Of a DNA stretch of 64,000 nucleotides, positions 12,993 through 64,000 are shown piece by piece (the first letter of the stretch is position 1; each line of letters starts with the position of its first letter). A program made the translations under genes and the position numbers. Under the pieces are notes generated by a model. It searched no databases and was not told the origin of the DNA. It was given only the letters and a program-made list of their open reading frames with translations. The stretch is taken from contig JAOTON010001031.1 of the NCBI GenBank assembly GCA_034440635.1, positions 372,001 to 436,000 on the forward strand, in the 5' to 3' direction. This stretch comes from Lepas anatifera. Taxonomy: Eukaryota > Arthropoda > Thecostraca > Lepadidae.

Positions 12993-13065
12993 TTCCGAAA
13001 CCCGCGATCGAACCGGGGACCTTTAGATCTTCAGTCTAAACCTCTCCCAACTGAGCTATTTCGGC
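12993..13065 (-). pseudogene. Decayed tRNA-Phe(GAA) copy
   Basis: A 73-base tRNA-Phe copy with substitutions in the acceptor stem (ttccg for tgccg), T stem (cccgcg) and anticodon stem (ctaaacctc). Its 200-bp lower flank (12780-12992) repeats that of the 12,244 copy, and a GA-rich tract again lies on the 5' side. Confidence 0.85.
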
Positions 13066-25140: not shown

Positions 25141-25889
25141 CAATAAAAGCCTCCCTCGAATTACTTAGTTAAGATTGTACCTAGTGGTCAGGGTCAACTT
25201 ATCCCTAAACTCAATCCATTGCATAATATATGGTTTGTAATTGATAAACCTTTTTTCACAGCCTGCACCTCTGGCCCAACGTTAAGCGTCGAAAGAGTAT
25301 ACGCCTGGCTGCAAAAAAACATTATCAATTCAACAACCCTTGCCCATAGTATGCACCTCTTAAAAAAATACATCTTTTATAGCTAGTTAATGTGATCAAT
25401 CATTGGCAAATACTTTTCCTCGGCCTGTAACTCTAGCCCAACGTTAAGTGTCGAATGAGTATACCTCTAGCTGCAGAAAAGTATTATCAATAATCGCAGG
25501 TTATTATTTATTGTACTATATTATATTTACTATTTTTATTATATTTATTATATATACTATGTTTATTATACTTCAAAACTTATAAAAAATTACACGTTGA
25601 TAAAATGTCTGGATTCTCAAACTTGTTTCCAAATCTTCAAACTTCTTTCATCTTATTCTTTACGATATTCTGATTAAATCAGCATAAATTAGGATTGTTA
25701 GAAAGAGAATTAAATTCCCTCACTGCAGTGCCCACTTTTGACCAGTGAAACTCCGTTATAAGCGGAAAATTAATATCTTTTCAGGAGCCTGAAAAAATAC
25801 GTCTTACCCCTACAAAGCATTGACACAGCTTTATCTATTCAGTATTTACTGAAACGAGCCCATTATATTTTTCACCATATACTTATAAT
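25141..25889. other. AT-rich sequence without recognised gene
   Basis: Low-complexity AT-rich sequence. A CCCAACGTTAAG-containing stretch of about 60 bp occurs twice (near 25276 and 25439). Confidence 0.4.
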
Positions 25890-26379
25890 GGGTTGACCAA
25901 AAAATTGACCTCACCTTAGGTCAACAGTATCATACTTCCGAGATAGCAGATTTGTAGACCCCAATGACCTTATCGTATTGTGGAAGTTTCAAACTGATCG
26001 GTTGGCTGATGTTCCCTGCCCTGAGATGACCTCAACTAAAAATTTTGTTCAAAACTGTAAAATTGATCAGGGATAAGGTACTGTAAGTTTCATTGTCCTG
26101 CCTCTCCTCGTTTTTGAGCTATCTGGGGAAAACCAGGAGGGGGGTGCCAATTCCGCCCCCCAGTGGGGCGCGTGTTAAGCTCTTATTGAATGAATATTTG
26201 CGTTCTCCTACCACAATTCATTTTTTTAGATTTGAGGGATAATTTCACGGTCAGTCAGTCTCAAGCCTTCGAAAAAAGCATATCTGCCCACATCCATAGA
26301 ATTTTGGTACTCCTGTTCCCGTCTGTTAACAGGCACTTATAAACCACCACCACATTCAGCACCACACTCGTAAGTTTTA

Positions 26380-27244
26380 CAATTCGCCTCACGACCCCTC
26401 CCCACCGGCGTTTCAACTCGGCGTCGGCGGTCGCCAGCGTGACCCCGCTCACCTCTGTAGCCCGCAGGCATACGGTGCCGGCGAACAGCGGCCGCTGATT
26501 GGTGGAGGCGCGTTCACTTGCACTGTGAGAAATTCATCGGACATTTCTTAATGAAAATGATACTGTCTTAAAGCATGCACCAGAAAATATATGTTAAGAG
26601 TCATTTTCAGACATTCATAGCGATACGTTTTTATCTGTCGGTTTTATTATCTGCTATAGTATCCAAGGCTGCCGTTCGGCACAGGCGAGACGGCGGCGGA
26701 GTCGTCACAGGCCAGCCGGCGGCCGAGTTCGCTGAAGTCAGGAGCGTCGAAATGGGATTCTGCTGAGTGGAGAGGAACTGGGCCCGGCCCGAAGGTAACC
26801 GAAAGAGGAAGGACGGGGGGGCGTTTGTGATATAGAACTAATAACCGCCTGGCACCCTCAAACCTGGCAGCTCTGCCCTGAACCCGTGGCTCAGGAGAAA
26901 TGCTATCCACTGTACCATGCACCCCCTCACAAGCCATGCGTGCACAGTGTTTTGAGGATCGAGGTTGATTAAGGAGGATATTTGTGTCACACGGCGCGGG
27001 CCAATGGGGGAGTTGATGCCAGGGTCAAGTTCCGGTGGGGTACAATGCACCCCTGAGCCGCAGGACGAATAACCGGTGTTTTATTGCGCACACAACCTCT
27101 GACAACAGCTATTCGTTCTGGGGATCGGAGTTCCATTTTTCTCCATCAAAACCCGATTCTTGTGTCGTTATCCCCGTCTCTGCGTGCTGTTTGGCACAAA
27201 CACTAAACTTCAAAACCCTGGGTAGACTTGGCTTCTTGACGTCT
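26380..27244 (-). repeat. R2 repeat copy 1, including a tRNA-like SINE head
   Basis: It aligns with 43,442-43,992 and then with 49,645-49,960, making it the uninterrupted version of that locus. On the minus strand at about 26935-26860, GGTGCATGGTACAGTGGATA (A-box-like) and GGTTTGAGGGTGCC (B-box-like) suggest a tRNA-derived pol III promoter; the second copy keeps the better A box, TGGCTCAGAGGG. No coding region. Confidence 0.7.
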
Positions 27245-28929
27245 TACATGAGCCAACCAAAACATGGCAAGACCCGGACGGAATATGGTGACACAAAATA
27301 AACCAAATGGTTCATTTTTGTCAATGTTGTAAAAGCAAATGAATGACCAATGATTTAATTTGAATGAAACATTTATGCAAGCCCATAAACTCTTATTCCT
27401 TGTTGTTTAAGTAAAGAGCTGATAATCAGGAAAATATTGCATTTCGTACAAAATATAACGATGTTATGCCACAATTTCTTTACTAACTACTGGGACAGAT
27501 CAAGTAGATGGTCCGAAACCGCATGGCAAAGGCGCGCTAGACACCCGGATACATGAGTCCATTAGAGTCGATTCCCTGGTCGGTACGGAGATAGCACACA
27601 CTGAGACTGGCCATGTCTTCGGGGTGAATGAAACTAACAATCACGATTACAAAATTGTGGCTTTCCACTGCCGAAACCCGGGATCGAACCGGGGACCTTT
27701 AGATCTTCAGTCTAACGCTCTCCCAACTGAGCTATTTCGGCTGACAACGGTTCCGGAGTTCGGTGACAGAGCTGCAGTTTGCAGGCGGTATCTACACCGG
27801 TGGGGGGGGGTGTCCTTGCTGCTAGGTGTCACTAACGTCGCCTTTTTCCTGTGGGTCATACCAGTGCTATGGTATTGGCATGGTGCTTTCTGATATAAAA
27901 TATGCTTTTCTGACTTAGGGGTGTACAAGCACTCCTAAAAGTACGCAACCTTACACACCTAGTGGAAAAGACTACCTTATCGATTTCGTTGAAAACAGCT
28001 TTGCTTAACTATTAAAACATCCTAACCTTGTGTTAGCACGTCCTAATCAGAAAACCGACCAACATTCCAGAAATCAAAACAGCCTGGTATCAGGGCCTTG
28101 GCGTTAATTTCATTAACAGTGTGCAGAGTTCCACTGCCACACCTATGGTCCGATCAACACATACGCGGGTCCAGGGTAGAGGGCAAGGGGGAGGCTAGTG
28201 CCCCCCATCGGCACCATCGGCGCCCCCTGAAAGATGGATGGCTGAAATTCAGTGGCGACGCCTCTGATACATTTGCATAACTTATACCTTCCTTTTACAA
28301 TTTTTTTCCGAATGTTTAGATTGAGCACTACATCCAACAGTGCAAGATTTTCTGTCAGTGTGACATTTAGTTTTCCCTAAAACCATTCTCACGACTCCTC
28401 TATTCTGCAAAACACTGTTTTAGGCAGCTGCATGATATGTGTGCACCCACTACGGTATCCACTCTGTAGCAATCACTAATGTGAAAACGTCCGCCCCCAA
28501 CAGTGAAAAAGTTTGAAATTTAAGTTCTCTGGTGAAACTTAACCTTACAAAAATCATTTGGTCATTGAAATCTGTAGATATACTCGTTTACTGGTAGAAA
28601 GTGTGTGACCCATTTTAAGGATCTGCACAGGGTGCATTAAGGACGAAAATGACGCTTTATCCACGTGGTAGAGAGCATAATAATGACGTGTCGATTTGGG
28701 CAATCGTGTGGCTTATGTACAAGAGAACTGCGAAGCACCTTCGAGTTACTATAGAGTTTTAACTACTAATTGGGTGAATATTTCCCTTCTTTTACTATGA
28801 GGCACTTCTTAGATTTGAGCGATATTTTTCAGTCAGTTTCACAGCTTTTAATGCTTTGGAATTTGATTTATTGTTTGAGTACCGATAGTATTTTGGCACC
28901 TTATTATGTCCTTAGACTGTGGTAGTTTT
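27245..28929. repeat. R1 repeat copy B, left part
   Basis: It aligns with copy A (51,488-53,110) throughout, including the embedded tRNA-Phe. It ends at GTAGTTTT, where the gypsy LTR begins, and resumes at 42,536. Confidence 0.88.
27669..27741 (-). tRNA. tRNA-Phe (anticodon GAA)
   Basis: Identical over 73 bases to the gene at 21,055. A T run (TTTT on the minus strand, from ACAAAATT on the plus) lies about 20 bases beyond the 3' end and could end pol III transcription. Both flanks are R1 sequence. Confidence 0.95.
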
Positions 28930-29110: not shown

Positions 29111-29195
29111 CCTCCCCCAAACATCAAGTATCAAATATCGGACACCACCGTACACCTTCCCCGTCGAACATGTTTCCACTCAAAGTATACGTATT

Positions 29196-30198
29196 TCACG
29201 TGCCGTAAGCGGCCCCACTGCGGGTCTTCTTAGGAGAAACTGACAGCTCCGTGTAGGCTGAGGGGTACGACGCCGGCGCCGGCGGTGACGGCGATAATGG
29301 CGGCGGCGGATCCTCCAGCGACTGAGGGCGCGACTCCAGCCGCGAGCACAGCGCCGACGGTGGGCGCCGCACCGGCTGCGGGTGCGCCGTCGGTGAAGAG
29401 CGCGCCGACGGGTGCGGCGGCCCCGGCTGAGGGCGCTGAGGTGTCTGGTGACTCTGGGGTAAGTACGGCTCCAGCAACCGGTGCACCCCTCCCTGGCGAC
29501 GAGGTTTGGGGGCATGTCAGCAGGCGGCACAGACATCAGATGCACGCGATTTCGTCTCAGCACACCCGATTGTGTCCCTATGACGTAGCTTCGGTCCCTA
29601 CACCGTCGCTGAACAACTCCCTCTTTTGTCCAATCATTTTCCAGAGAAGTGCGAATTCTGACTCTGTCTCCCGGTCTCAATGGTTTAAGACTTTTTGCAC
29701 GATAACGTCGATCGAAATTCCTCTTCATTACCTGTTTGGAGACCATGTCCTTCCCACGCGCCTCTGCTGTGGCCCCACGAGTCAGCTGTGGCGCCATCGG
29801 CGGCGGCAGTCTCGTAGGCAGAGGACGTCCCATGAGAAGCTCTCCCGGCGAGTTAGGAGTCCCGTTGGCTGAGTCGGCGTTGACCTGTAGGCCAACAGTG
29901 CCAGCTGAGGATCTGGCTGCCTCAGCAACCACTTGGCCTGGCTGACGGCACGCTCTGCTGCTCCGTTGCTCTGTGGAAAATGCGGGTCTGTCACTCGATG
30001 AACAAATCCATAAACTGCGGAGAATTCCTGAAACTGGAACGACGTGAACTGGCTTCCTCCGTCCGTAGTCAAAATGTTCGGAATTCCAAAACGTGCGAAT
30101 GACTCCTTTAATCGACTTATAACTGCGCTGCTTGTGGTAGTGGTCAGCTGTTGAATCTCCAAGTACCGACTGAATGTATCAACTGTGACGAGGTACAT
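29196..30198 (-). pseudogene. Gypsy integrase core and C-terminus, frameshifted
   Basis: The segment from 30198 has VTVDTFSRY (first Asp), TTDGGSQFTS (second Asp) and NGAAERAVSQAK (Glu), the DDE triad of LTR integrases. After a shift near 29800-29930 comes a chromodomain/GPY-type module (RPGDRVRIRT, KEGVVQRRCRDRSYVIGT). A further shift near 29480 gives a Pro/Ser-rich tail ending RSGAAYGT at 29196. Catalytic residues are present but the frame is broken at least twice. Confidence 0.9.
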
Positions 30199-30919
30199 AC
30201 GTCTTGGAATCTAACTGACAAATATCAGCAGCTACATGTAGCCATGGTTGTTCAGGAAGTGGTGTTGGCTGCAATGGTTCTTTATGTTGAACTGGTGCAT
30301 TTATCTGGCAAAAGTTGCACCTCTGGATGAACAGTCTTAGATCCTCATTGAAGCCTGGCCACCAAACAAATGTTGCAGAGCGCTCACGACACTTTTTAAT
30401 GCCCATGTGCCCATCGCCATGAATGCGACCCAAAATGATGCCTCTCAGCTCCGGTGGAATAATGAGCCGGCTGCCATACAGCAGTAGTCCGCTGACAACA
30501 CTGAGCTGATCCCTTACCGCATAATAAGGATGACAGACTTCTCCGGCAGGCCTCCCAGTGAGCGTGTAGTGAGCTGCCGCACTTATCTCGTCGTTCGCTT
30601 CCTGCGCCATGCGGATCTCCTCTATCCGACTGTCGGATGCGGGCAGGTAGCTGATCACAGCATCCACGTGATCCTGGATGTCCCGCTCCATCTGTTGTGC
30701 GATGACGTCAGCACGTGACAGGCAATCAGGCGCACAATGCAGATGACCAGGGACGTAGACAGCAGTGGCGTTGAAAGACATCATGCGCATCAGCGTACGT
30801 TGACAACGGACAGGAGCATCTGCGAGTGATTTGGTGTTCAACAAAGGGCACCAACGGCTTGTGGTCGATGTGCACATGGAAATTAGGGAGGCCATTAAGG
30901 AAAACACGGAACTTCTCAC
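30179..30919 (-). pseudogene. Gypsy RNase H end and integrase zinc-binding domain
   Basis: It reads VPGHLHCAPDCLSR (linker after RNase H), then the HHCC zinc module around HGDGHMGIKKC and RCNFCQ. The frame is lost near 30190, just before the integrase core. Its first part overlaps the end of the RT-RNase H frame, marking another frameshift near 30750-30850. Confidence 0.88.
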
Positions 30920-31925
30920 ATACCCAGGTTACACCGAGGAGCTCCTTTTCGATCGTTGCGTAGCGCTGTTCGGTAGGAGTGAGCGTCCGGCTGCAGTAGG
31001 CCACCGGCTTGAGCTGCTGACCGTGTCGTTGGAGCAAGCATCCGCCGATGCCGTAGCTTGATGAGTCTGCGCCGACGACCGTCTCCTTTGTGCTGTCATA
31101 GAAGGCCAAGACTGGAGGATTCAACAGCAGCCGCTTTGCTCCTTTAAGCGCGGCCTCCTGGGATGACGTCCATTGCCAGACAGTGTCTTTTTTCAACAAG
31201 TCGGTGAGCGGCTTCAGAACTGTCTGGATTCCGGCGACAAACTTGCACATGTGGTTGATTAATCCTAGCTGTTGTCTGAGCTCCTTGATGTTTTGAGGTG
31301 GCTGAAGCTGCTGTACTGCGGCAATCTTCTCCGGATCTGCTGCGATTTCTTCAGCACTGATGATGCTTCCCAGGAACTTCACACTTTTCTGTTTGATTTC
31401 ACACTTGTTCTTGTTGAGCTTCAGGCCGGACCTTTCTATCCTGTTCAGGACCGCTTCCAGCCGTTTGTCGTGTGTCTTCTCGTCGCCATACACGATTGTG
31501 TCATCCATGTAACAGATGGTACCTTCGAGTCCCTGCAGCATCTCTTCCATCTTCCTCTGGAACACTTCCGGCGCAAGGTTGATTCCCATGGGAAGGCGTC
31601 GAAACATCCATCTGCCGAAAGGACTAAGAAAAGTGGTGAGAATCTTCGAATCGTCGCTTAGGGGCAGTTGGTAGAAACCAGATGACGCATCTAACTTCGT
31701 GAAGTAAGTAGCTCCCTTGAGCTGAGACGTCAGCTGATCGAAAGTAGGTATGGGAAAGATTTCCCGCTTTACAGACCTGTTCAGCTTAGTGTAGTCGACA
31801 CAGATTCGAACACCAGAGGTCTTCGGTACAACAACCAAGGGCCCGCACCAGGCTGTGGGCTGAGTCACTTTCTCGATGATGCCGCTGTCCTCCATCCGCT
31901 GCAGCTCCTTCTGCACGTCCTTCAT
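30726..31925 (-). pseudogene. Gypsy reverse transcriptase and RNase H
   Basis: About 370 in-frame residues. RT motifs are VPKTSGVRICVDYTKLN, TKLDASSGFYQ (Asp), LPMGINLAPEVFQ, CYMDDTIVYG (Asp pair) and KFLGSIIS. RNase H follows with VVGADSSSYGIGG (Asp), TIEKELLG (Glu) and HIDHKPL (Asp), in the standard gypsy order. The protein tail past DHKPL is garbled by a frameshift. This is the best preserved part of the element. Confidence 0.93.
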
Positions 31926-32281
31926 CCGTGGCAGCGGACGTTCCTCGCTGTGTGAACGGCGAAAGGGGTCACTCCCTCTTCAAGTGTGATGCTGACAGGC
32001 GCCGTGTCCATTCGGCCGGTGTCACCAAAAACGTCTGGAAGAGGCGCCTGCGAAACACTGTTGACAAAAGTTATCAGGCCGAGCTCACAACTGGTTGCTC
32101 GCAATAGCAAGTTGTCAGGAAATGCCGTTTCGACGACAAAAAAGGTCGCTGGCTGCGTCTTGTCCCCGTGTGGGAGAGTTGCCTGAAAGATTGGATCCAC
32201 TGAGCCACCGCACTCCATCTTCCTGTCACTCTTCATGTCCACCAAGTAGATTTCCTTCATCTTGCCCATGCTCACCCCCAC
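31922..32281 (-). pseudogene. Gypsy protease, C-terminal half, and linker to RT
   Basis: The stretch FFVVETAFPDNLLLRATSCE, then LGLITFV, matches the C-terminal half of retropepsins before the RT linker. The DTG active-site half is not visible upstream, where unrelated sequence begins near 32290. It overlaps the RT frame by a few bases. Confidence 0.7.
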
Positions 32282-37106: not shown

Positions 37107-40100
37107 CTAAGAGGTCTCATTAAAACATGAATGGGGCTTTGCGAATTCTACCTATATTTTTACATTACGATTGCTGTAATATCCCAATTATATGACTGAC
37201 TAATAAAGAATACATAGCATGATCAGGGGGACTGAGCATCATACTAAGCCGATGGCTACCACAGGATTTGGACCCTAAAACAGTCAATTATGTGCAGACC
37301 CTACATTGTCACAGTCATGGATGCAGTTTTTTGCCTATGCAACAATACCGGAAATCATGGATCTGCCGATGTGATCCTTGCTCCAATTGGTCCCATTGAT
37401 CCGACGGAGTGAAGATAATTCTTCATGACATACGAAGAAGATTCAACACAAAGTCGTCATTTGTGAAATGCATTCCTGTGTTCACTTCCTTGCTATCGCT
37501 CGCAAGCTCACTCTGTCTGATGACCACATTTCAAGCACGTCCTTTCTTTCAAGTCTTGCCTTCTCTTGTGGACCAGTGAGGGTTACTAACAGGCTGCAAT
37601 CACAAACAGAGTCTCAGGTGAGACCAGGACATTTCACTTCCAGCAAAAATGTCTATTTCGTTTTTAATGGATTTGTGGGCACATTAAATTTTCTAGTGTG
37701 ATTAACTCGCAGCAAAAATAGGCCAGAATCTGGTTAGCTTTCAGTTTTGCAGTGGGAAATGTAGTGCCAGAGTTGGAGGCTGAAGGTCTATGGCCCCCTC
37801 ACTTCCTGGCTTGTTGCGACCTGCCTGGCCGAAGCGGGATGGCGCACATTGTTCTGCAACTGGACAATATGAGCCTTCATGAGTCTACTCACATATGAAA
37901 TGTTGCTGCGTTGGTGTTTTTTTAATCAATGTGGCTTCATATTTTTCACATGTTTGTTTAAAAATGAGCGCCCCGCAAATTTTCCATGATATAGTTTATT
38001 TTGGACATCCGTTCAAAATTTCGTCGCAATCAGGTCACTGTCTGCGGTCAAGAAATCAGCTGAAAAAATTTCATAGTCGCAGCTCAACAAAATCGTACCG
38101 GAAGCTACGTGGGCGTGTTTTCGAAATAATATTGACAGAATAGACCATTTTTAACACATTTAAAGTACAAATGAAGAATAGGCGGAGCTACTTGTACCTG
38201 ATTTGTGTCTAATGGCCTAGTTGACCCAAGACGGCGTTTTTACCGACGTGAGCTGTGTGCAAGGTCTAAAATACAACCTTACCAGCAGCCGGAAGATCCG
38301 CACTTTTATGGAGATACCACTGTTACCAGCGCAAGTGTAAATGTGAAATGATTTTGATCCATGGCGTCCGCGGAATACACTACAAGGGGAACTTGCGACG
38401 GCTGCTGGAGGGAAGACCTTTGCTGACAAAGAACAGAGTGGGAAGGTGACACTCAGAAAAAAGACGCGTTCAGTATGTGGATAATCTTTCAGATTTCACA
38501 GCACTCCACTCCGCAGTGTCTCAAAACTGGTTTTGCATTGGGATACTGAGTGTAAAATTCACGCTTGAAAATATGGAAGGCGAGTAGAAAGTCCAAACGC
38601 TATAATATTGTGGGAGTTAGTTGAAACTCGATTACAGCCCTTACTTATATTTGGCGCGTTTTTCATCAAATTTGTTCTTCCTTCCACACTAGATGATTTT
38701 ATATATACTAGGATTATTGAACTATGCTAAAAAAATCCCCAGGAAAAGTGTTTGGAAAAGTGAGTTAGAAAAAATGAAGGGAAAAAGTGAAGGGGAAATT
38801 CAGGGCGCCTGGGTGTCACACTCTACTAAGCATTCTAGGATTGAGATCATTGTGCCTCCATCGCCATTATCAAGGATGACACTCTCCGTTCAGCGGAATA
38901 CAAACGGCAGAGCGCCAGGCTCTACCAATATCAGTAAGACCCATTTCTGGCCACCACGAGCTGGAGTGACAAGATCTTTCAGGGGAAAAGAAAGCAGTGA
39001 TTGTCCTGTGAGCAGAGTGCTAGCGACCACGACTTCAGGGCAGAAATTAACTCAACTAGTGTGTCCCCGTAGAACACTCCTCATAAGGAAAGGCAAGCAA
39101 TCGTGCGAGTCAGATTTCTGTATCATATTCTGCCAGCACCTGTTATCACCGAGGCTGGTGACTAGGGTGTCCTCCCCGTAGGTGGATCCAGGATTGCCGA
39201 TCAGGGGGGGGGGCAGTTTCCCGAGGGGCGCCATTTGGACCAGGGGTTGCCACTTTTGACCGACAAAACCCATCAGTTGGGCGCAAAATCCTATCGGTTG
39301 GCACCGATTTTTGCATCCTGGGGGGATGGAAAGCGACATTTCAGCGGGAGTCTTACTAAAGACGTCACGTTTTTCTTGCAATGAAAATGGAAGGACTGAG
39401 GTCAGTTTTGATTCAATTGTCGAGTTTGTCGCACCTGTTTTAGATTTGTCTCTGCCAAGAATTTTTATGATGGGCAAAATATCGGCAAAATATTTTTTAT
39501 GATACTCCCGTCATGGAACCTCCCTGAAGCTGGTTTCTAAACATATTGCTATTTTTGGTATTTGTGCATATCTCGTACATACCGGGTGGAGATAATTTAT
39601 TCATCGCGCAATACTTAGAAAAAATGTCACACTACAATATCATAAGAAGATAATGATAGCCACTAATTCGTACCCGCAAGATCTAGCTACTTGTATAAAA
39701 AACAGGACCAACAGACTCACGGAAACATCTCCACTCAGCCGACCAAACCGACTACCGAAAAGACTGGGCTGACGGCCAACGCCTATGCCTTGGATCACCC
39801 AAGCTGATCGAGGCTGCAATTCGGGTATCCAAGCCCGGGAAATCATCACAAAAACGGTCCCGAAGACAGCCACCTCCGGTCCCGAGAGGGGGCCAGGTGG
39901 GACCTGGACGGCGGGGACGGCGCAACGGCGTGGGTCCTCGCCACAAATCGGCTGTCATCCAAACCGGAATCGCCAGAGCTTCCTTCGGTGATTGGAGCGA
40001 CTTTAACGAAGCGCCTCCCAGATGGATATCTTTATTCGACGGCCGGAACAATCATCATCATCATCACATTTCAGAGGGCGCCATCAACCTTTCAGGGGGC

Positions 40101-42866: not shown

Positions 42867-43441
42867 GTTCACATTTCATTAGAGTCCTCTCTCAAACTCT
42901 CCCGTTCTAGAGGCAACCCTTAGTACGGGGGATACATTTTGGCCTAGATCATCAACAAGAACCAATTCCTTTGTAAGGATTCAAAAGTTGCACTTTGCAC
43001 CGCTTGGTCCGGCATGTGATATCAGTAACTACCACAGTTCCAGTAAATTGGAAATCATTCTCTACTAAGATTAAATCGACGACCATTGACCTTTAATAAT
43101 AACTTTAACAATGAACACGTCACCCTGGCTCATGATATAGAAAACAAAAAAACACTGTAGCCTGCAAACAATTTTTTACCGAAAATTAAAAGCTTTGACA
43201 TTCTCCAAAATGTGTTTACCCTGGAGTAGAAAAACTCTGCAGACTGGAAATCAGCGACAGCAACTTTTCTGACCCAGCATATCCACAAATCGAGCTTATT
43301 TAATAAACTCGTTTCCAGGGATATCAACTCCACACGGTGCAGACACCTTACTCATATATCCACCCACATAAATAGAATGTCTCTGTCACCCTGCCCTGCC
43401 GACTATCGCAAACATCCCTCCCACTGCACATGGGAGTTATA
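42867..43441. other. No gene recognised
   Basis: Mixed sequence between R1 copy B and R2 copy 2. Confidence 0.4.
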
Positions 43442-43992
43442 ATCCGTCTCGCGACCCCTCCCCACCGGCGTTTCAACTCGGCGTCGGCGGTCGCCAGCGT
43501 GACCCCGCTCACCTCTGTAGCCCGCAGGCATACGTTGCCGGCGGACAGCGGCCGCTGATTGGTGGAGGCGCGTTCACTTGCACTGCGAGAAATTTAGCGG
43601 ACATATATGAATGAAAATGGCAGCGTCTTAAAGCATGCACCAGGAAATCTATGTTAAGTGTCATTTTCAGACATTCATTACTAATACTTTTCCTCTATTG
43701 GCTTGATTATTTGCTTTGTTATCCAACGCTGCTTTTCGGTACAGGCAAGACGGCGGCGGAGTCGGCACAGGCCAGCCGGCAGCCGAGTTCGCTGAAGTCA
43801 GGAGCGTCGCAGTGGGTTTCTACTGAGTGGAGAGGAACGGGGCCCGGCCCGAAGGTAACCGAAAGAGGAAGGACGGGGAACGTTTGTGACTTAGAACTAA
43901 TAATCACCTGGCACCCTCAAACCTGGCAGCTCTACCCTGGACCCATGGCTCAGAAGACAGGAACGCTACCCTCTGAGCCATGCAGCCCCACT
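43442..43992 (-). repeat. R2 repeat copy 2, left part, with SINE-like head
   Basis: It aligns closely with 26,390-26,930, including the tRNA-like segment on the minus strand (43,990-43,908: TGGCTCAGAGGGTAGCG, then GGTTTGAGGGTGCC). It stops at GCCCCACT, where the 5.65-kb insertion begins. Confidence 0.85.
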
Positions 43993-43993
43993 C

Positions 43994-44810
43994 GACCTGT
44001 TCATATTAGACCTTTGTCTTCAAAAGTGTTCAAACTGATACTTTTCCCGTTCTTCAAGGTCTCAATGAACGGAATATAGCCTTTATTTTGCTCTTGGACC
44101 TTTGCTATGCCTGCCTCAAAAGCCATATAGTTTATTTGTTGAAGTTTAAAAAAACACTGCTAAATTCGGGATATTTAGTCATTGTTTGAATTATACCTTC
44201 CTAGAGGATGATGCTATAGCGTAAAAAATGCTGCCAAATGAAAGCTAATGCATCTTTTCTCATTCTACCCAAGTCTTAATTTTTTCTGTCGGGTCATCTC
44301 AGGTCACAGAGATATTTAAGGTCACGTGACCCGACCTCAAAACCCGAAATCACGAGTTTAATGCGGTGCCAAGGGATTAAGTGTCAACCGATTAGTTTGA
44401 AACTGCTTCAGCAGCACGCAGACATCATGGGCTACACATCTGCACATAATAATAATCATTTTTTGCCTAAGATGGGGTCAATTTTGAGGTCACCCCATTA
44501 TAAGGATATGAATAAAAATGCAACAGGCCGGTTTTTAAGCCAAATATGGCATGAACAAGTTCTTACTGCTTCTGCCGTATAGTCTTGATACGTGTATGGC
44601 TCTCAAGTTGTTATTTTAAGTGTTTGACCTTTCAGAGGTCATCTAAGGTCACCTCGAGGTAATATATTCAAAGGACAATAACTCATCACCAAATTGAGAT
44701 AGAGCGGCCATTTTTATTTCATACTGCGCTTGTCTTGTCACGGGGATTTGATTGAAATAACATATGAGCATACCAGGTCACGGTGTAAGCTTGACTTAGG
44801 TCAAGGTCAG
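43994..44810. repeat. Left long inverted repeat of the CRHH unit
   Basis: It matches the complement of 48,826-49,636. The outer half is AT-rich; the inner half (from 44,290) is AGGTCA-rich and resembles the inside of the TTAA element at 10,532 (for example GAGMTAGAGCGG, then CTTGTCAC). AGGTCA-rich sequence continues to about 45,010. Confidence 0.85.
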
Positions 44811-45371
44811 GTCACTTTTACTAATTGACCTTTGAAAGTCATTTTATGCATTATTCCATTGGCCACGACGAGGGGAATTCAATTATACCAAAATATATTT
44901 TCTAGCTCATTCAGTCAGAATGTATCGGGGGAAAACTAAAAATACCCATTGTAAGCCTTTTTGGCGGTCTGTGACCTCTGTTGACCTCAATATTGACCTA
45001 AACCAGAAATTTCTCTCCGCCATGTCAACACGGTTCGTACGCCACGCAGTCATGCAATGTTTTCACACAATTTTGTAGAAAGGAGTGGGTAAGGCTCAGA
45101 GAGCGCACTTTGCCCCTCAAAAGGCGATCTTTATCACCCAAGGCCGCTTAGTGTCGTTGAGGGGGATGCAGATTCTTGGCTTGCAGACCTAGTATAAACT
45201 CATTTTTTAGAGGTGCCCCCGCCCCCTTGAACCCGTCTCTGATCCACGTTAAACTTACTAAAGGTAAAGATAATGGTACAATGAGCCATTCATATATTTG
45301 ATTTCTTTCTACTTGACACGACAATGGTGTACATTAGCTGTACACGAATCTTTGCATATTTACTATTAGGT

Positions 45372-45584
45372 GCATAGGCGGATCCGGATTGCCGATGGGG
45401 GCACCTTCGGGGGCCAACCGGACGGGGGCGCCATCCGGACCAGGGGCGCCACTTTGCCGAAAAGCTATCGGTGGGCGCCAATCCATCGGTGGGCGCCGAC
45501 TTTGGCATCCTGGGGGGGGAGCGACATTTCGGGGCGCATGACCTTTCGGGCGCGGGTCGATCGGGGCCCCCCGATCCTTGATTA
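45372..45584. mobile_element. MITE, CATAGGCGGATCC family, inside the CRHH unit
   Basis: It starts CATAGGCGGATCCGGATTGCC and ends GGGGCCCCCCGATCCTTGA. The flanks TTAGGTGC and TTAGGTGT suggest an 8-bp duplication with one mismatch. Related starts occur at 39,179 and 60,944. Confidence 0.65.
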
Positions 45585-45697
45585 GGTGTGTGTCTTTAGA
45601 TGGGACACGACAAAAATGACATAGAAGTATGATAACACTACTAACACCATCATTGTGTAAGAAACTGTCACATAGGATGACACTCAACCATGCATTG

Positions 45698-48064
45698 TTA
45701 CTTGTTCAATGTGGCTTTACGGAAACTGTCAAATTTCTTTCTGTGGTACTCTACGACTTGAAGCAAACAGCTTCTCTGTTCTCGGTTGGTGGTGATGTGA
45801 GTCGCAAAGTCACTCATGAGTTTGACTCCTCTCTCAGCCACATCATTCGTCACTTTACTGACTTCACAAACTGCTGTGCCTTCTTGTAGCTGTCATTTTC
45901 TCCCCAGGAGTCTGCAGGGGCAGTGAGCCAGTCACACTTCACCCCAAGAGCGTCAAACATGAAGTGAGACTCTGGGCCTACCAAGTCTGTGAGAAGTGTA
46001 GCCTCGTTGATGACAGGAAATACTGGCTTTCCTCTCCTGTAACTGTCAGGTTTCTCTGTCTCTGACAGCTTGACAGCGAGCTCCTCCTTTGAGACTTGGT
46101 CATGATGTCATTCGAGCTGAATAAGGTGAATGTTACCAGCTCCTGGGTCAGATACCAGCGGTGGTTCGTCAATTTCTTCAGAACAGATGTCGCTAGTTCA
46201 TGATCATGCTGTTTGTATTGCAGCATGTCCTGCATCAGCTGGAGGTCATGGATCGGTGCGTCAGCAGCAGATGTTGCCGTCACCCAATGTCTTGTGTAGA
46301 ACAATGCCAGGAACCTATTTATCCTCGCCAGCTGGAAGATAGTGTCATTGTTGTACCTCAGTTCCTTGGAGAACAGGAACATTTTCATGGAGTAAATATT
46401 CCTGGCCATCCACCGGGCTTGGTGAATGGCACCTGGCTTGGCCCAGTGGATGCCTTCTGCTGGTTTCTCACCGGGGAGGATCAGACAAAGTTCTGCGACC
46501 TCTCTATAATCTGCTCTCGGGCTTGCTTCCTCGAGGAAACTGTTCACAATTTCAACTGTTGTTGCCTTCTTCTGTTCTAGGTCTTGCTCGACTGGGTCCA
46601 GAACTCTTGGACATCCCTTATCCAACATGTCCCACTTCTCTTTCACATTGTTGAACATTGGGTTGTCAGGACTCTTGACCTTGCTGAAGACAGCCTCCCA
46701 GGCACCTCCAACTATTACCTCAGATATGTGATGGCGACAGGCGAAGTAGAATACCTTTTTGTCCAGCTTTTCTTCAATCAACTTTGCCGCACCCTTGTTG
46801 ACGCCACTGTTGCTTGCTGTGGTATCAAAAACCAAGCCTACAACCTTGTCTGCGAGACCCCATGTTTCAATTAGCTCCAATGATGCATTGCACTGCTGGA
46901 TCCCTGTGGAACTGTCTATGAAGGGCACACCAAGCAACTTCCCTTCTTCATAATGTGGAGCGCCAGAGACGAGCACCGCAAGACTTTCAACTGGGTATGT
47001 TTCACCAAGAACATCCCTCACGAGTTTGCCATCCCAGTGTAGTGTGCAGTAATCTGGCGGACTTTCCATGAAGTCATTCATGTAACTTTGACTCAAGTTT
47101 TGGCGAATGTTTATCCTGTTTCGTCTTGTAGTGGAGGTTGATATAAAAAAGTCATCAAGATCCGCGCCTCCTGCCTTCAGCAGAGCAGAGACCATGGCGG
47201 TAGTCTGGTTATCAGAGAGTGATAACCGATCTGCAGCGCTGCAAATTTCTTCACTAGTCATAACTGACCGTGACAAGTGTAAGGTTAAGGTTTTTGTAAG
47301 TACTGGGTTTTGATGAACAGCCTGGTGTTGGCTCAGCAAATTCTGAATCCTCACTAGTTCCAGTGCCTTGGCTGTTTTCTGGGTCTTCATCAAGTTGAAA
47401 TTTCCCCAACTCCTGCTGCTTCAGCAGTCACTGGTGACAGCATTCTCTCTTCTCTTTCTTCCCGGAAGCTTTTCTGTCTTGACTTCTTCTCAAACTTTGT
47501 CATGGCCTGACATATATGCAAGTCGAGTGGTTTGTTGGTCTAAGTAGAAGTTGACGTCTTCTTCTTTGGTCTCCTTTGTAAGCAGCCTGTCAGTTTTTAT
47601 CTCCTCCACAGCATCTTTTGATCCAATGTCAAACAACTTTTCCAGCTCGTTCAGAAAGTCAGTTCGTTTCTCCTCCTCAGGTTTGCTGTCTCTTCCCTTG
47701 TTTCTGATTATTTTTCTGTACTTTTCATGAAGGATCAGGAAGTGGTTGACTGCATTTGGTCCTGTCAGTGTTTTAATCCTTGCCATATTCCAGAATGGCA
47801 ACACGACATCCACCGTATCACTGGCCAGAGACCTTGTATCACTGTTGGGATTCTTGTTTCTCAAATGCAGGAAATATTGGAACACCTGGCGATTAGTAGG
47901 AAGCTGATAGCCACTGATACTGGAGCTGGCTTGCCCAATGAGAAACACATCACTTGACGACCTAGTGACGGGCGTTGCCACCTTTCTTCTTTTTGCGTTG
48001 GTTCATGCTCTTTGCTTATATCGCTGACCACTTTCCCGCTGCGTAGTTTTCTTCCAGATTCCAT
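45698..48064 (-). pseudogene. CRHH-family protein with hAT-like RNase H fold features, frameshifted
   Basis: It starts MESGRKLRSGK at 48064. An N-terminal alpha-helical-looking domain occupies 47,981-47,490 (LPTNRQVFQYF, DVVLPFWNMAR, EKLFDIGSKDAVEEI, LAYMSGHD). The main body is a 471-codon ORF at 47,393-45,978: LHWDGKLV (Asp 121), VGLVFDTTASN (Asp 190) and YFACRHH (219-222). An Asp followed by a C-x-x-H-type motif is the pattern of hAT transposases. Past 45,978 the same protein continues in another frame (LVGPESHFMFDALGVKCDWL), then, after one more shift, NDVAERGVKLMSDF, to a stop at 45,698; the Glu there may complete the acidic triad. At least four frameshifts exist. I know the family as uncharacterised, multi-copy proteins in many invertebrates; a transposase role is inferred from the fold pattern and the surrounding inverted repeats. 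Confidence 0.7.
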
Positions 48065-48825
48065 GTCAGCACCTCTCATTCAACCTGAAATGAAGAAATA
48101 AACATAACTCTTTTTAACCTATTGCTCGATTGCATAAAGAGAAACGTTTTGCAATCAATTCATTTGTTATATAACATCATTCATTCTGAGCATCACAATA
48201 TGTGTGTATGCTTGTGCGTTAAGATCAATACAATTTACACACGTTTTCACAGTGGCAGGCACTCGCTAACTTCAGCCCAAATTCCAGAACGATAATTCGA
48301 TCACTTTGCGTACCTAAGGACGCCCATTTCGCTAACGAAAACGATACATTTTTTTAGCTGTTGAGTGAGTAAGAAGACCAAAACCTTTTAAATGATGTTC
48401 CGAATGTATCATAAGCGAAACGTAAAACACGAAATAACCTTTGAAATAAAAACAAAGTATTTTAAACTGGAAATCTATATTGGTGCCCACAATCCACATA
48501 CAGCAAATGCAAAAGTAAGCAATATTCACAACACAAACCTTTTACCACACGCTTGTAGATCCTTGCTGAACGACCTCCACACAGTGTCTGATGCGACTGA
48601 ACAGTGCCCGGCATCATGTTCACTAGCTGGGCGCCGAGAGGAGTCAAATGCTCAACAAGAACCTGAGCTGGCCATCGGAAATGTGATCATCGCGGTGCGG
48701 GGAACGAGCTTGGCTGTAGCCGAGTCTTTGTTTTGGAAATCACAGTCAGGCATGCCTCTGTCGACTATCGATGTGTGAAATGAGCGGTCACAAAATACAC
48801 TCCTATAAAAAAGGGTTCCAAGGAT
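48065..48825. other. Leader region of the CRHH gene; no other gene
   Basis: TTTCAG directly upstream of the start region (minus strand, near 48,085) could be a splice acceptor, so a 5' non-coding exon may lie further right. Short ORFs here are unsupported. Confidence 0.35.
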
Positions 48826-49636
48826 AATGACCTAGGTCAAGCTTACGCCATGACCCGGTATGGTCATATTTTATTTTAATCAAATTCCCGTGACAAGACA
48901 AGCACCGTGAAATAAAAATGAGAGCTCTATCTCAATTTGGTGATTATTTATTGTCCTTTGAATATATAACTTATAGGTGACCTTAGATGACCCCTGAAAG
49001 GTCAAATACTTAAATGAACAACTTGAGAGCAATAAACGTATTAAGACTATACGGCAGAAGCAGTTAGAACTTATTCATGCCATATTTGCTTAAAAAACCG
49101 GCCTGTTGCCTTTTTATTCATATCCTTATAATGGGGTGACCTCAAAATTGACCCCATCTTAGGTAAAAAATAATAATTATTATGTGCAGATGTGTAGCCC
49201 ATGATGTCTGCGTGCTGCTGAAGCAGTTTCAAACTAATCGGTTGACACTTAATCCCTTGGCACCGCATCAAACTCGTGATTTCGGGTTTTGAGGTCGGGT
49301 CACGTGACCTTAGATATCTCCATGACCTGAGATGACCCGACAGAAAAAATTAAGACTTGGGTAGAATGGGGAAAGATGCATTAGCTTTCATTTGGCAGCA
49401 TTTTTCACGCTATAGCATCATTCTCTAAGAAGCTATAATTCAAACAATGACCAAATATCCCGAATTTAGCAGTGTTTTTTTAAAACTTCAACAAAAAAAC
49501 TATATGGCTTTTGAGGCAGGCATAGCAAAGGTCCAAGATCAAAATAAAGGCTATATTCCGTTCATTGAGACCTTGGAGAACGGGAAAAGTATCAGTTTGA
49601 ACACTTTTGAACACAAAGGTCTAATATGAACAGGTC
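48826..49636. repeat. Right long inverted repeat of the CRHH unit
   Basis: It is the complement of 43,994-44,810 with scattered differences; identity looks close to nine bases in ten over most of the length by eye. It ends in a doubled GGTCTAAT motif at the outer edge. Confidence 0.85.
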
Positions 49637-49644
49637 TAATGTCT

Positions 49645-49960
49645 GCCCCACACAAGCCCCGCGCACACGGTGTTTTGAGGATCGAGGTTGGTTAAGAAGA
49701 ATCTTTGTCCCACACGGCGCGGGCGAATGGGGAAGGCGATGCCAGGGTCGAGTTCCGGTGGGGTAAAATGTAACCCTGGGCTGCAGTACGAATAACCGGT
49801 GTTTTATTCCGCGCACAACCTCTGACAACAGTTGCTTGTCCCGCAGGATTTAGTTGATTTAGTTGTATTTTGCTCCACCGGAACTCAATCCTGGTATCAT
49901 TATCCTTGCGCGAGCTGTTTTGGACAAACTCTTAACCTCAAAACCCCGTGCAAACTGGGA
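49645..49960. repeat. R2 repeat copy 2, right part
   Basis: It continues R2 copy 1 from about 26,930 (GTGTTTTGAGGATCGAGGTT, then CGAATAACCGGTGTTTTATT, then ACAACCTCTGACAACAG). Confidence 0.85.
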
Positions 49961-51273: not shown

Positions 51274-51346
51274 TGCCGAAACCCGGGATCGAACCGGGGA
51301 CCTTTAGATCTTCAGTCTAACGCTCTCCCAACTGAGCTATTTCGGC
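51274..51346 (-). tRNA. tRNA-Phe (anticodon GAA)
   Basis: Identical over 73 bases to the gene at 21,055, with intact acceptor stem, GAA anticodon and A/B boxes. It has an R3 3' flank with TTTT about 25 bases downstream, and a GA tract (TC in tRNA orientation) at 51,361-51,396 on its 5' side, as with the two decayed copies. Confidence 0.95.
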
Positions 51347-51361
51347 TTGAGCTTTAGGAAG

Positions 51362-51398
<37 letters not shown>

Positions 51399-51487
51399 CT
51401 AAAGGTTTTAGGCGCACAGATAAACAATAATTACCCGGAATTCGTGAGCAGCCTCGACATCTAGGCCCGCGGTAGGCACGCGCTACT

Positions 51488-53380
51488 GCCTCTTACACGA
51501 GCCATACAAATTATGTCCGGACCTAGGCGGAGCATGGCGACACAAAATCAACCGATGTAAAAAACCAATGAATGGTAAATCATGTATCTAAATGAAACAT
51601 TTATGTAAGCCAATAATCCCTTATTCTCCGTTGGTTTTTAAGTAAAATAATGAGAGAAAATCATTTTATTCAAAAACATAACGATGCTACGCCACAATTC
51701 CTTCACTTACTACTAGTTCTCCCTAACTGGAGGGTCAGAAACCGACTGACAAAAGGGCGCCAGATACCCGGATACATGAGTCGATTGGTTCGTTTTCACG
51801 GTTGGTACGAAGATAGTGTACACTGAAGGTGTCCATGTACCCGGGGTAAGTGAGACTAACAATGACGATTACAAAACCGTGGTTTTCCACTGCCGAAACC
51901 CGGGATCGAACCGGGGACCTTTAGATCTTCAGTCTAACGCTCTCCCAACTGAGCTATTTCGGCTGCAAGCAGTTCCGGAGTTCGGTGACAGAGTTGCAGT
52001 TTGCAGGCGGTATCTACACCGGTGGGGGGGTGGGTGTCCTTGCCGTTAGGTGCACCAGCTTCGCCTTTTTTGCTGTGGGTTATACCAGAGCAATGGTATT
52101 GGCATGGTGCTTTCTGACATTAGCGGTGCTTTTCTGACTTTTAGGGGTGAGCGAGCACCCCTAAAAGTACACTACTTTACACACCTGGTGGAAGATCTAC
52201 CTTATCGATTTCGTTGAAAACAGCTTTGCTAAAACTATTGAAATATCCCAAACTTGTGTTAGCTTGTCCTTATCAGAAAACCGAACAACACTCCGGAAAC
52301 CGAAACAGCCTGACATCAGGGCCTTGGCAGAGTTACACTGCCACACCTATGGACAGACCATTAAATACGCGGATCCAGGGAGGGGGCAAGGGAGGGAGGT
52401 GCCCCCATCGACCCTCGGCGCCCCCTGAAAAATGGATGGCTGAAATTCAGTGGCGACACCCTGATATATTTGCATAACTCATACCTTCTTTCAAAAACTT
52501 TTCTACCTCCAACACTGCATATTTGGCGCCAATGTCATGTCTAGTTTTCTCTAAAACAATCCTCACGACTCCCCTGTTCCGCAGAACACGGTCTCAGGGC
52601 AGCTGCATGGTAAGAGTGCAACCACTTCGGCATCCACCGTGTAGAAATCACTAATGTGAAAACGTCAGCCCTGAACAGTGAAAAGGTTCGAAATGTGAAT
52701 GCTGCAACGAAATAAGCTAAATTTAGAAAACCATTTAGTCATTGAAATCGGCGAATTTACTCGTTAACTGGTAGAAAATGTGTGACCCATTTCAAGGAGC
52801 TACACAGGGCGGATTAAAGACAAAAAGAGGCTTTAACCATGTGGTAGAGAAGAGAAGAATAACGTGTTGATTTGAGAAATATTGTGACGTATTTACTAGA
52901 AGACCACGGAGCACCTTCGAGTTGCTACAGTTTTAACTTGGTAAATATTTCCGTTCTTTTACCATAACTCTTTTATTTGAGCGATATTGTTTCAGTCATT
53001 TTAACAGCTTTGAATGTTTTAGCGAATGAGAAGCATTGCAGTAGATTTACTTTTGTGAGCTGATGGTATATTTGTATCTTAGTATGTCCTAAGACTGCCA
53101 TAGTTATGCCCTAAAATAAGCTGCTGAAGACAGCGGCGGACAATTAAAACTTATAAAACTATTGTCTTTGATACCTTTTGGTCAGCAATCATCACAAGCT
53201 ATACCTTTTGACGGATTCTCGTAACTGTAGGGGAAAGTTTTCTACTACCGCACACCTAACGGGAATTTCACATTTATTACAGTACGGAGCAATTGCAAAT
53301 CGTGCATTTGGAATCCCATGGCTTAATGCATTGTCTAACATCTGTCAGGCTTAGAAAGCCATACCAGCTGCCCGGTAGGC
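51488..53380. repeat. R1 repeat copy A (uninterrupted)
   Basis: It aligns with copy B over the whole length and with copy C from the tRNA rightward. It holds a tRNA-Phe gene, a shared GGATCCAGGGAGGGGGCAAG, then GGCGCCCCCTGAAAAATGG segment, the single CCTTCGAG and TTTTAACT sites where copy C carries insertions, and the GTTATGCCCT site where copy B carries the gypsy element. No protein-coding gene. Confidence 0.88.
51891..51963 (-). tRNA. tRNA-Phe (anticodon GAA)
   Basis: Identical over 73 bases to the gene at 21,055. R1 flanks on both sides. An AAAA (TTTT on the tRNA strand) lies about 20 bases downstream. It lies 545 bases from its neighbour at 51,274, same strand. Confidence 0.95.
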
Positions 53381-56765: not shown

Positions 56766-57963
56766 TTAACCTTCGCCCGGGTGGGGGGTCTTTTTAGACC
56801 CCCTCGGGTTTTTCCGAAGTGACCAAAAAAACTGCGGCGCGCAGCTGCCAAACTTAATCTAGCTGTTCCTTCATAATTTTTACATCTTTCCCAAAAATTT
56901 TAGCTCAAGGTCATATCAGGCCAGGTCACCAGGCCAGGTGAAGTGACCTCACCTAAAAAATGCTTAGGACCGCATAACTAAAAGAAGAGTTAATCGATCA
57001 AGTTGAAACTCATACCACATATTGGGCCCACCAGGAGCTAGAACATTTGTTCAGTGATTTTTTTTATTGGTGACCTAAGGTCATGTGCAGAGCATGACCT
57101 CCCCATTGTAAATATATGGGGAAAATCACGAAATAAGCTTTTCTCAGTAAGCATGGATGGAATCAACTTCAAACATCGGTTACGACTTGCTCTTAGCGAA
57201 TTTCTGAAGTTGATGCCAAACATTTTGACTTGTGACATTTAAAAGGTCACCTTAGGTCAAATAAGCATTTTTGGTGTTTTTCTCTATACATTTTGAATGA
57301 AATAAGATAGAGCTTTTATTTTGTCACCAAAGTGTTTGTATAATTACTGCAAGTCAAATGATATACATCATGACGATACCAGGTTAAGTTGGGTCAGACC
57401 GTTGACCTGGGTCAGGTCAAATCCTTAAATTTGACCTGGCATAGCAATATTATATATCATTCGATTCGTATTGACGAGAAGATTGCAATGGTGTATCAAC
57501 TATGGCTGTATCTTGTTTGGTTTGGAAGTTGTTAGCGAAAAAGGAAACGCCCTTATGCATGGGTGGCTATGGACATTCCCAAGAATATTCCCAATATTCA
57601 GTGACCTGTAGCTCCCTAGGCTTTGACCTGACACGAGAATGAATGCCACTGCAATAAAAGAGCAACTCAAGAGCTTTCGAATGGTGTTAGAAAAATGTTT
57701 CTAGCTATCATAGTTTCTGAGATATATGAGGTTTTTTTAGTACACCTCATAATAGCGATTTTGACCTATTTTGACCTCTAGTGACCTTGATATTGACCTG
57801 ACAAGAAAAATGACCGAAGTATTTTCGATATAATTTTTAAAGAGCTTTCGATTGCCATTTTGCGGTTTTTTCTAGCTCTCTTAGTTTTTTAGATCGTGAG
57901 GGTCTTTTTAACCCCCCCACCAGGGCGAAGGTGGCTCGTACCCGCCACCGGGGCAAGGGTTAA
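56766..57963 (-). mobile_element. TTAA-flanked, AGGTCA-rich element (subfamily 2, short copy)
   Basis: Inverted copy of 15,196-16,844, about 450 bp shorter inside. TTAA at both ends; termini TTAACCTTCGCCCGGGTGGG and, complemented, TTAACCCTTGCCCCGGTGGC. GGTCTTTTTAGACC palindrome near the left end. Confidence 0.85.

Positions 57964-61705: not shown

Positions 61706-61757
<52 letters not shown>
61590..61757. repeat. AT/AC microsatellite
   Basis: A compound ACAC, ATAT tract of about 165 bp. It cuts off the Penelope-like reading frame on its right. Confidence 0.95.
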
Positions 61758-61758
<1 letters not shown>

Positions 61759-61774
61759 TTATATATTAGTAAAG

Positions 61775-61965
61775 TATGGGAGCAGGTTTTGGTTCACACA
61801 TTCTTGATTAAAGATGACAGCGTGTTTGGCATTTGTCAGTTTTCTATTCAGTGTTTCGATTTTCCTTATTAGTTTTCTCTGCTCGTTGGATGGAAACTCA
61901 GATAATAGTTTACCAAATGATAAATTTCGCGACGTTCCGTCAATCACATTAACATCTTCGGGCAT
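61775..61965 (-). pseudogene. Penelope-like element ORF, N-terminal start, truncated
   Basis: From the ATG at 61965 it reads MPEDVNVIDGTSRNLSFGKL and on to QNLLPYFTN, the same protein start as at 63,448 on the other strand. It is cut by the AT tract after about 63 residues. A possible start further upstream (MYFVCIYVF) exists only in this copy; the other has GTG there. Confidence 0.75.
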
Positions 61966-62228
61966 ATCAATTGGTACAAATACATAAATGCATACAAAAT
62001 ACACTCATCTACTTTCGGATCGTCTCGATATAACTAGCTCTTAATTCTTAAACAGCATGGACAAATCTTAGTTTAAAATTACATGCCGATAGCTCAGGAG
62101 GGCACCATCAAGAAAAAGACACGATACTGGTTTTTAAAATTAAACTTACATACATATTCTAACATATTTCTAAACACTTTTATTTAGGGCAATCCTTTGT
62201 CACTTATGCTACCTAACTTTACGCACAC

Positions 62229-62747
62229 TTATCTTAACCTAGGCCCCAGGGGGGCGCCATCGAATAATGATAATGTGGATATTTGATTCATCTGCCGATT
62301 GATGGTCGGGCTGAGATCGCGGATGAATACGGACTCCAGAACCTGCAGCTTCTTTTTGTCTTGGCAGCGAGTGAGGATGTCTGTATTATCGACGAGGATG
62401 GTTCTTGTCAGGGTCTTGTCGTGGTCTTGTCTTAGATGTTTCTGTGGAGCGCCTTCTTGCAAGTGCATAGTCATCCTCCTTGAGAAGCTCGTCGTTGTGT
62501 AACCAACATAGCTACGCTCTGGACGGTGCGCGCAGTCACCAAATGGGCATTTAAATTGGTAGACTATGTTGATGGCTTTTAATTTCGAGTTCTTCTCGGA
62601 CAGGTTGTTCTTCATGACTAGACTTGAGATTTTTGGGCTTTTATAAAATATTACCTGGCTGATCTTGTGCTCTGGGTTTTTGGGTTTGCAGTTTTTGATG
62701 ACGATATCCTGCAGGGTCTTCTCTTCTTTTTTATATTGGGTTGTCAT
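62229..62747 (-). pseudogene. Penelope-like element C-terminus with GIY-YIG endonuclease
   Basis: 172 residues. A linker (KISQVIFYKSPKISSLV) is followed by NIVYQFKCPFGDC and ERSYVGYTTTSFSRRMTMH, the IVYQF/YVGYT pair and nearby Arg of GIY-YIG nucleases in Penelope-like retroelements. The reverse-transcriptase part upstream is absent. On the same strand it is followed, after about 260 bp, by the N-terminal start at 61,965, the partial tandem order typical of these elements. Confidence 0.85.
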
Positions 62748-62880
62748 AATGTTTTGGTAGAAAATCCTGATGTCGTTTCCTTTGTTGGTTTCATTATCTG
62801 GTTTTTGCTGATGGTACTTGTTAAGTTGTCTAATTATTTCTTCTATGTTGGCTTTTCATAGTTGTTTGAAGCTAGAACAC

Positions 62881-63179
62881 TTTGGTGACTGCGCGCACCG
62901 TCAGAGCGTAGCTATGTTGGTTACACAACGACGAGCTTCTCAAGGAGGATGACTATGCACTTGCAGAAGGCGCTCCACAGAAACATCTAAGACAAGACCA
63001 CGACAAGACCCTGACAAGAACCATCCTCGTCGATAATACAGACATCCTCACTCGCTGCCAAGACAAAAGAAGCTGCAGGTTCTGGAGTCCGTATTCATCC
63101 GCGATCTCAGCCCGACCATCAATCGGCAGATGAATCAAATATCCACATTATCATTATTCGATGGCCCCTGGCTAGGTTA
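62881..63179 (+). pseudogene. Inverted copy of the Penelope-like GIY-YIG C-terminus, frameshifted
   Basis: Complementary to 62,543-62,240 nearly base for base. A base missing after CGCACCGTC and another in the AAAAGAAG run break the frame. It starts at TTTGGTGACTG, inside the endonuclease domain. Confidence 0.85.
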
Positions 63180-63447
63180 AGATAAGTGTGCGTAAAGTTA
63201 GGTAGCATAAGTGACAAAGGTTGCCCTAAATAAAAGTGTTTAGAAATATGTTAGAATATGTATGTAAGTTTAATTTTAAAAACCAGTATCGTGTCTTTTT
63301 CTTGATGGTGCCCTCCTGAGCTATCAGCATGAAATTTTAAACTAAGATTTGTCCATGCTGTTTAAGAATTAAGAGCTAGTTATATCGAGACGATCCGAAA
63401 GTAGATGAGTGTATTTTGTATGCATTTATGTATTTGTACCAATTGAT

Positions 63448-64000
63448 ATGCCCGAAGATGTTAATGTGATTGACGAAACGTCGCGAAATTTATCATTTGG
63501 TAAACTATTATCTGAGTTTCCATCCAACGAGCAGAGAAAACTAATAAGGAAAATCGAAACACTGAATAGAAAACTGACAAATGCCAAACACGCTGTCATC
63601 TTTAATCAAGAATGTGTGAACCAAAACCTGCTCCCATACTATACTAATCTTAAGCTATATGACCGAGCAGTACAGCGCAGGAAGACAACTCTCGATTTCA
63701 GAAGGAAGCTCCTTGAAGAAGAACTCAAAAGGAAGAAAAAGCTTGTAAATGAAATAGAGCGTGAGTATTCATCAGTGTTTACCCGTTTCCGTGACTTAGA
63801 TTTGACGACTTCACTACGTGAGAGAACAGAGAAACATTTAGATTGCCTTAGCGTTGTATATGAGGAGACTGTGAAGACCACCATCGAAAAGAAACTTTTG
63901 AGGCTCAGAGCTGGCCGTACTGATTCTATCAATCGAACTGATGCATTTGTAAACTTGTCCAAACACGAACTGACAGATAGTCAGCAAGAACTCCTAAACT
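63448..64000 (+). CDS. Penelope-like retroelement ORF, N-terminal part, running off the window
   Basis: Open for 184 codons from the ATG at 63448 to the edge. It has MPEDVNVIDETSRNLSFGKL, a Lys/Glu-rich helical region around residues 75-115 (RRKLLEEELKRKKKL) that looks coiled-coil, and FVNLSKHELTDSQQELLN at the edge. The 'NLS..LT..Q..LL' phrase is the usual lead-in to the reverse transcriptase in Penelope/Neptune-type elements. It may be the intact main copy; the RT and endonuclease would lie beyond 64,000. Confidence 0.8.
   Translation, partial: MPEDVNVIDETSRNLSFGKLLSEFPSNEQRKLIRKIETLNRKLTNAKHAVIFNQECVNQNLLPYYTNLKLYDRAVQRRKTTLDFRRKLLEEELKRKKKLVNEIEREYSSVFTRFRDLDLTTSLRERTEKHLDCLSVVYEETVKTTIEKKLLRLRAGRTDSINRTDAFVNLSKHELTDSQQELLN

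Follow-up and report, generated by a model that had tools for sequence, protein, structure and literature searches.

What interrupts one of the two copies of a repeat, R2, in a 64,000-nucleotide stretch of the Lepas anatifera genome (assembly GCA_034440635.1, contig JAOTON010001031.1, positions 372,001–436,000 of the forward strand; hereafter the window, whose numbering is used throughout)? The original prediction, made from the sequence alone, read the interruption as an undescribed DNA transposon in which long inverted repeats enclose a gene for a hAT-like transposase bearing the motif CRHH. The transposon reading as a whole is supported by the present analysis: the insertion is very probably a defunct member of a hAT-like lineage of cut-and-paste DNA transposons, with a transposition history, defined ends, target duplications, a conserved active-site pattern and a predicted fold like that of the hAT transposase Hermes. 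No description of a CRHH transposon family was found among the results of full-text literature searches; Repbase and Dfam lay outside those searches, and the term "undescribed" is thus unproven. The insertion and its empty counterpart consist of the following features:

43992–49638, minus strand: whole transposon copy, 5647 bp, with TC at the left end, where other copies have TA, and TA at the right, the ends being set from 30 other copies
43994–44803, plus strand: left terminal inverted repeat, about 810 bp
48828–49636, minus strand: right terminal inverted repeat, about 810 bp, pairing with the left arm
43985–43991, no strand: left target duplication copy GCCCCAC, 7 bp exact, from the junction and the empty-site comparison
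49645–49651, no strand: right target duplication copy GCCCCAC, from the same comparison
49639–49644, no strand: ATGTCT, 6 bp separating the right end from the flank, absent from copies with exact duplications
45373–45580, no strand: nested GC-rich insert, 208 bp, with ATTAGGTG flanking both sides (one copy counted in)
26377–27150, plus strand: uninterrupted paralogous site (empty-site comparison)

The two arms align over 812 bp at 93.6% identity, in agreement with the predicted length of about 810 bp, and the first R2 copy (26.4–27.2 kb), proposed as the undisturbed site, is colinear at 26377–27150 with the joined flanks of the insertion (43437–43991 and 49645–49831), with 87% identity in the two ungapped blocks listed. 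An insertion bounded by inverted repeats is therefore real, but the boundary originally assigned to it was shifted: the true ends, as known from other copies, are TAGACCTG...CAGGTCTA, the left TA being mutated to TC in the window copy and 6 bp lying between the right end and the flank. The bordering repeat, predicted as 8 bp, is an exact duplication of 7 bp only, the eighth bases T and A belonging to the mutated element end and the flank, and is probably a decayed 8–9 bp duplication. Because a common 7-mer within 15 nt was found in 103 of 20,000 random flank pairs from the window, the window copy alone is only modest evidence, and the other copies are decisive. The nested insert is absent at the same junction in each of the 33 other copies whose sequence spans it, L042 and L043 being the two that do not span it. 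A piece at 39225–39342 resembles the insert, which is probably a separate small mobile element. Sequences at 22843–23051 and 25867–25924, without trace of the gene, match the inner part of the transposon end repeats at 74–83% and are perhaps an older relative.

A DNA search of the genome (1.04 Gb, 2126 contigs), in which 36 places were scored among 5526 first-look candidates and which therefore gives lower bounds on copy number, yielded 35 copies besides that of the window, 30 with both ends and five with one (L026, L028, L033, L042 and L043). The copies terminate in TAGACCTGTTCATATTAGACC and its complement, and 29 of the 30 have a terminal TA on both sides; the 21-bp terminus occurs 172 times in the genome at two or fewer mismatches, against zero for a reversed control. 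Exact duplications flank 27 of the 30 two-ended copies (9 bp in 17, 8 bp in 10), whereas an 8- or 9-bp match was obtained in none of 870 mismatched-flank pairings. Five further copies taken from the terminus list (L045–L049) include four with exact duplications (8, 9, 9 and 9 bp), so that duplications of 8–9 bp are exact in 31 of these 35 copies (30 plus five). The target sites form an approximate palindrome, NTGNN(N)CAN: in the 8-mers (n = 10), G occupies position 3 in nine, C position 6 in nine and A position 7 in all ten, and in the 9-mers (n = 17), T occupies position 2 in 13, G position 3 in 11, C position 7 in 14 and A position 8 in nine. L029 and L031 have the same insertion site and thus represent one insertion within a duplicated locus. 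The two flanks of L022 are reverse complements (TACCCCTC / GAGGGGTA), without target duplication, an arrangement that could stem from inversion or hairpin joining.

The predicted tie between these termini and the CRHH protein was borne out. Among the 43 protein-match places on contigs covered by the terminus matches listed, an exact terminus lies no more than 4.5 kb away at 42 (on both sides at 23, either orientation counted), and the remaining one (C631, L033) has a terminus with a single mismatch. The possibility that the inverted repeats also enclose unrelated genes was checked in part: L045, L046 and L047, the three of the five further copies that are missing from the protein-match list, all hold pieces of the CRHH gene, other such terminus pairs (e.g., C393, C868, C971, C1026 and C1397) being outside the sample. 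In L045, the remainder has been replaced by a 1.2-kb sequence whose endonuclease match is below threshold and which is probably a piece of a long interspersed nuclear element. The same internal deletion, with breakpoints at 3444 and 4827–4829 of the element, is present in 30 of the 35 copies, and the resulting non-autonomous form is 4.1 kb long; the sequences taken for L028 and L033 do not include the right breakpoint. The N-terminal coding region is partly kept in L009, L010 and L011. The 27 complete short copies share pairwise identities of 97.3–99.95% and differ from their majority by 0.76–1.47%, which indicates a spread that is recent on an evolutionary scale. Most copies examined have lost the N-terminal coding part and would have had to be mobilized in trans.

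Four sister families, X, Y, Z and W, are present in the same genome. X, Y and Z are compact elements, each with an uninterrupted single open reading frame (ORF) and terminal repeats of 12–14 bp by eye. The duplication is 8 bp in X, Z and W and 9 bp in Y, and TAGGG ends together with 8-bp duplications occur in three of the four.

The gene enclosed in the window copy is broken, and its features are as follows, all motifs being read from the sequence:

45701–48064, minus strand: remains of the transposase gene for the CRHH protein, split over three frames and interrupted by stops when compared with the 786-residue relative P0001
45978–47393, minus strand: CRHH-bearing ORF
47490–47981, minus strand: ORF piece for the all-helical N-terminal domain, 163 residues (model pLDDT, predicted local distance difference test, 94.1)
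47031–47033, minus strand: codon for the first catalytic Asp (LHWDGK), conserved in relatives
46824–46826, minus strand: codon for the second catalytic Asp (FDTTASN), conserved in relatives
46728–46739, minus strand: CRHH (CxxH motif), conserved in relatives
46410–46415, minus strand: RW pair (ARWM), putative equivalent of TRW in hAT
45833–45835, minus strand: codon for the proposed catalytic Glu (NDVAERGVK), in a frame different from that of the CRHH ORF

The Asp-(68)-Asp-(28)-CRHH spacing was described correctly and corresponds to D342, D411 and C440 of P0001. Two queries gave 178 and 237 database matches to CRHH proteins, the closest named relatives being from crabs (Portunus, Chionoecetes), and the D, D, C..H, R and E residues are present in 121 of 122 CRHH relatives. 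From its position and the ER motif, E742 of P0001 is the putative catalytic Glu.

An RNase H fold like that of hAT transposases had been anticipated, and the structure model indeed has one, with a large helical insertion; its best match is Hermes (score 19.0, 361 residues aligned over the catalytic and insertion parts). The order D, D, CxxH, RW, E is that of hAT enzymes (Hermes; also Ac, hobo and Kat1), and the D1–D2 spacing is 69 in the CRHH family and 68 in Hermes. A hAT element of the same genome (L044), which matches PF05699 and zf-BED, carries DIWTSR, SDNASN, CNNH, ETRWDS and SERVFS in the same order as the CRHH motifs. TAG-starting ends, a single transposase gene and the 8-bp duplications among those observed are further likenesses. 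In targets of X, Z and W, T at position 2 and A at position 7 each occur in five of six (by eye), and the target preference of Hermes is given as nTnnnnAn (PMC10368747). When a profile of 122 CRHH proteins was compared with one of 13 hAT proteins, the RNase H cores aligned with their ASN and CxxH motifs matched up (score 34.9 with P 0.0055, against 29.4 for the top-scoring of 30 block-shuffled controls and 20.2 for the reversed control), a sequence alignment that is suggestive of kinship but no proof.

Several results weigh against placement in hAT. The probability of that same profile match is only 6.6%. PF05699, the hAT C-terminal profile, which has 150 matches in this genome, is missing from the complete Pfam listings of 16 CRHH proteins; among 65 CRHH members at E 1, no Pfam family appears in more than two, and PF05699 is not among the 25 families listed of 53. 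A sequence search of PDB gave no transposase match for the CRHH protein. A BED finger, common though not invariable in hAT enzymes, is not apparent, with no Cys or His conserved at ≥70% before residue 340, and no fold match was found for the all-helical model of the N-terminal domain. In Foldseek, the MULE-like (Mutator-like element) ISCth4 ranked first (E 0.014), with no match under 0.001. The RW argument is soft, since the Kat1 counterpart of Hermes W319 is described as not essential (PMC4763223). The 812-bp ends of the window's family far exceed the 10–25 bp given as usual for hAT terminal repeats in PMC3942097, and 9-bp duplications outnumber 8-bp ones in this family (17 of 27). In the 8-mer targets, in element orientation, T stands at position 2 in just three of 10. 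Exact 8–9 bp duplications are lacking in the window copy and in L009, L022 and L029 among the 30, and that of L046 agrees in only 7 of 9 bases. In sum, the predicted fold with its helical insertion and the ordered residues agree with hAT, duplication length and target pattern agree in part, and the PF05699 profile, the BED finger and the end length of the window's family do not; this mixed outcome led to the label "hAT-like lineage", which covers both a deep branch within hAT and a superfamily sister to it. The transposase is thus predicted to be hAT-like in fold yet matches no catalogued protein family searched.

As a hAT-like enzyme, the CRHH transposase would assemble at least as a dimer, use its helical N-terminal domain to bind the end repeats and nick at the TAG ends, with hairpins formed on the flanking DNA in hAT style. 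The CxxH His may be placed at the scissile phosphate, and the aromatic residue of the RW pair may aid a flipped base. After excision, the 3′-ends of the element would be joined to the target at points 8 or 9 bp apart, and the 4.1-kb deletion derivative would be moved in trans.

The CRHH enzymes could instead stand within the CxxH group as a superfamily in their own right, distinct from both hAT and MULE, with a likeness to hAT due to convergence or very old ancestry. This is rather unlikely: it accords with the failure of every catalogue searched to detect them, with an N-terminal domain for which no known fold was found and with the low probability of the best hAT profile match, but residue order, D1–D2 spacing and insertion size jointly agree with hAT, as do the TAGGG ends in three of five families, the 8-bp duplications in four of five and the target pattern of the sister families. 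A further proposal, which is tentative and of somewhat less than even probability, would make the CRHH proteins transposases of a widespread animal cut-and-paste superfamily that is distinct from hAT but sister to it, in which a helical DNA-binding domain of their own replaces the BED finger, and of which this genome holds young families with uninterrupted genes; such a superfamily would have remained unclassified because no profile detects its proteins.

A divergent MULE is improbable. CxxH, a helical insertion, long end repeats and 8–9 bp duplications are shared with Mutator-like and IS256 elements (ISCth4), and the duplications of about 9 bp and sometimes long terminal repeats typical of MULEs are indeed found here, but these are not specific to MULEs. 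The profiles and the ISCth4 figures set the two apart: the MULE profile PF10551 does not appear in the complete Pfam listings of the 16 proteins, the fold score is lower for ISCth4 than for Hermes, whose match spans both catalytic and insertion parts, and TAGGG ends with 8-bp duplications prevail in the sister families. The insertion of ISCth4 is also much smaller, the distance from D2 to the Glu being 107 residues (D241–E348; PMC7780238) as against 331 to the proposed Glu here. Kolobok duplicates TTAA, unlike the varied 8–9 bp duplications seen here. For KDZ and Zisupton, the comparison extends to Pfam profiles only, and the listings of the 16 proteins contain no KDZ transposase family. Dada elements likewise encode a DDE transposase, with a DxxH motif following the second D, and tRNA repeat units lie near in the window, but their duplications, as described in PMC3706591, are 6–7 bp and lie inside small RNA genes, whereas the present ones are 8–9 bp and none of the tRNA-Phe genes contains the insertion of the window. 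A segmental or inverted duplication enclosing a host gene, which the abundance of repeats and inverted repeats in the window might suggest, is already refuted by the 172 termini, the exact duplications and the near-identical copies.

The remainder of the window contains repeated units that together carry six minus-strand tRNA-Phe genes (GAA; 12244–13065, 21055–21127, 27669–27741 and 51274–51963), and both R2 copies are located near such genes. A near-perfect inverted repeat at 61753–63660 (arms of about 760–770 bp, 98–100% identical in blocks, loop of about 380 nt) either is a foldback element of recent origin or stems from the assembly, and a stretch of about 1.5 kb occurs in inverted copies about 40 kb apart (15294–16833 and 56776–57870; 83–95% in blocks). 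Retroelement pieces are found at 29180–31979 (minus strand; reverse transcriptase, RNase H and Integrase_H2C2) and at 6993–9702 (plus strand; endonuclease, along with a reverse transcriptase match below threshold). A long ORF at 929–3067 with 5′-nucleotidase and metallophosphatase domains is the sole host-gene-like match among ten ORFs scanned.

With these results, a large set of "uncharacterized" invertebrate proteins gains a probable function and, in this genome, also defined ends and duplication lengths, so that repeats could be better annotated in the genomes of crustaceans, aphids, wasps, snails and leeches. As X, Y and Z carry uninterrupted single ORFs in compact elements, activity is directly testable, and an N-terminal domain other than a BED finger would be informative about end recognition by hAT-type enzymes.
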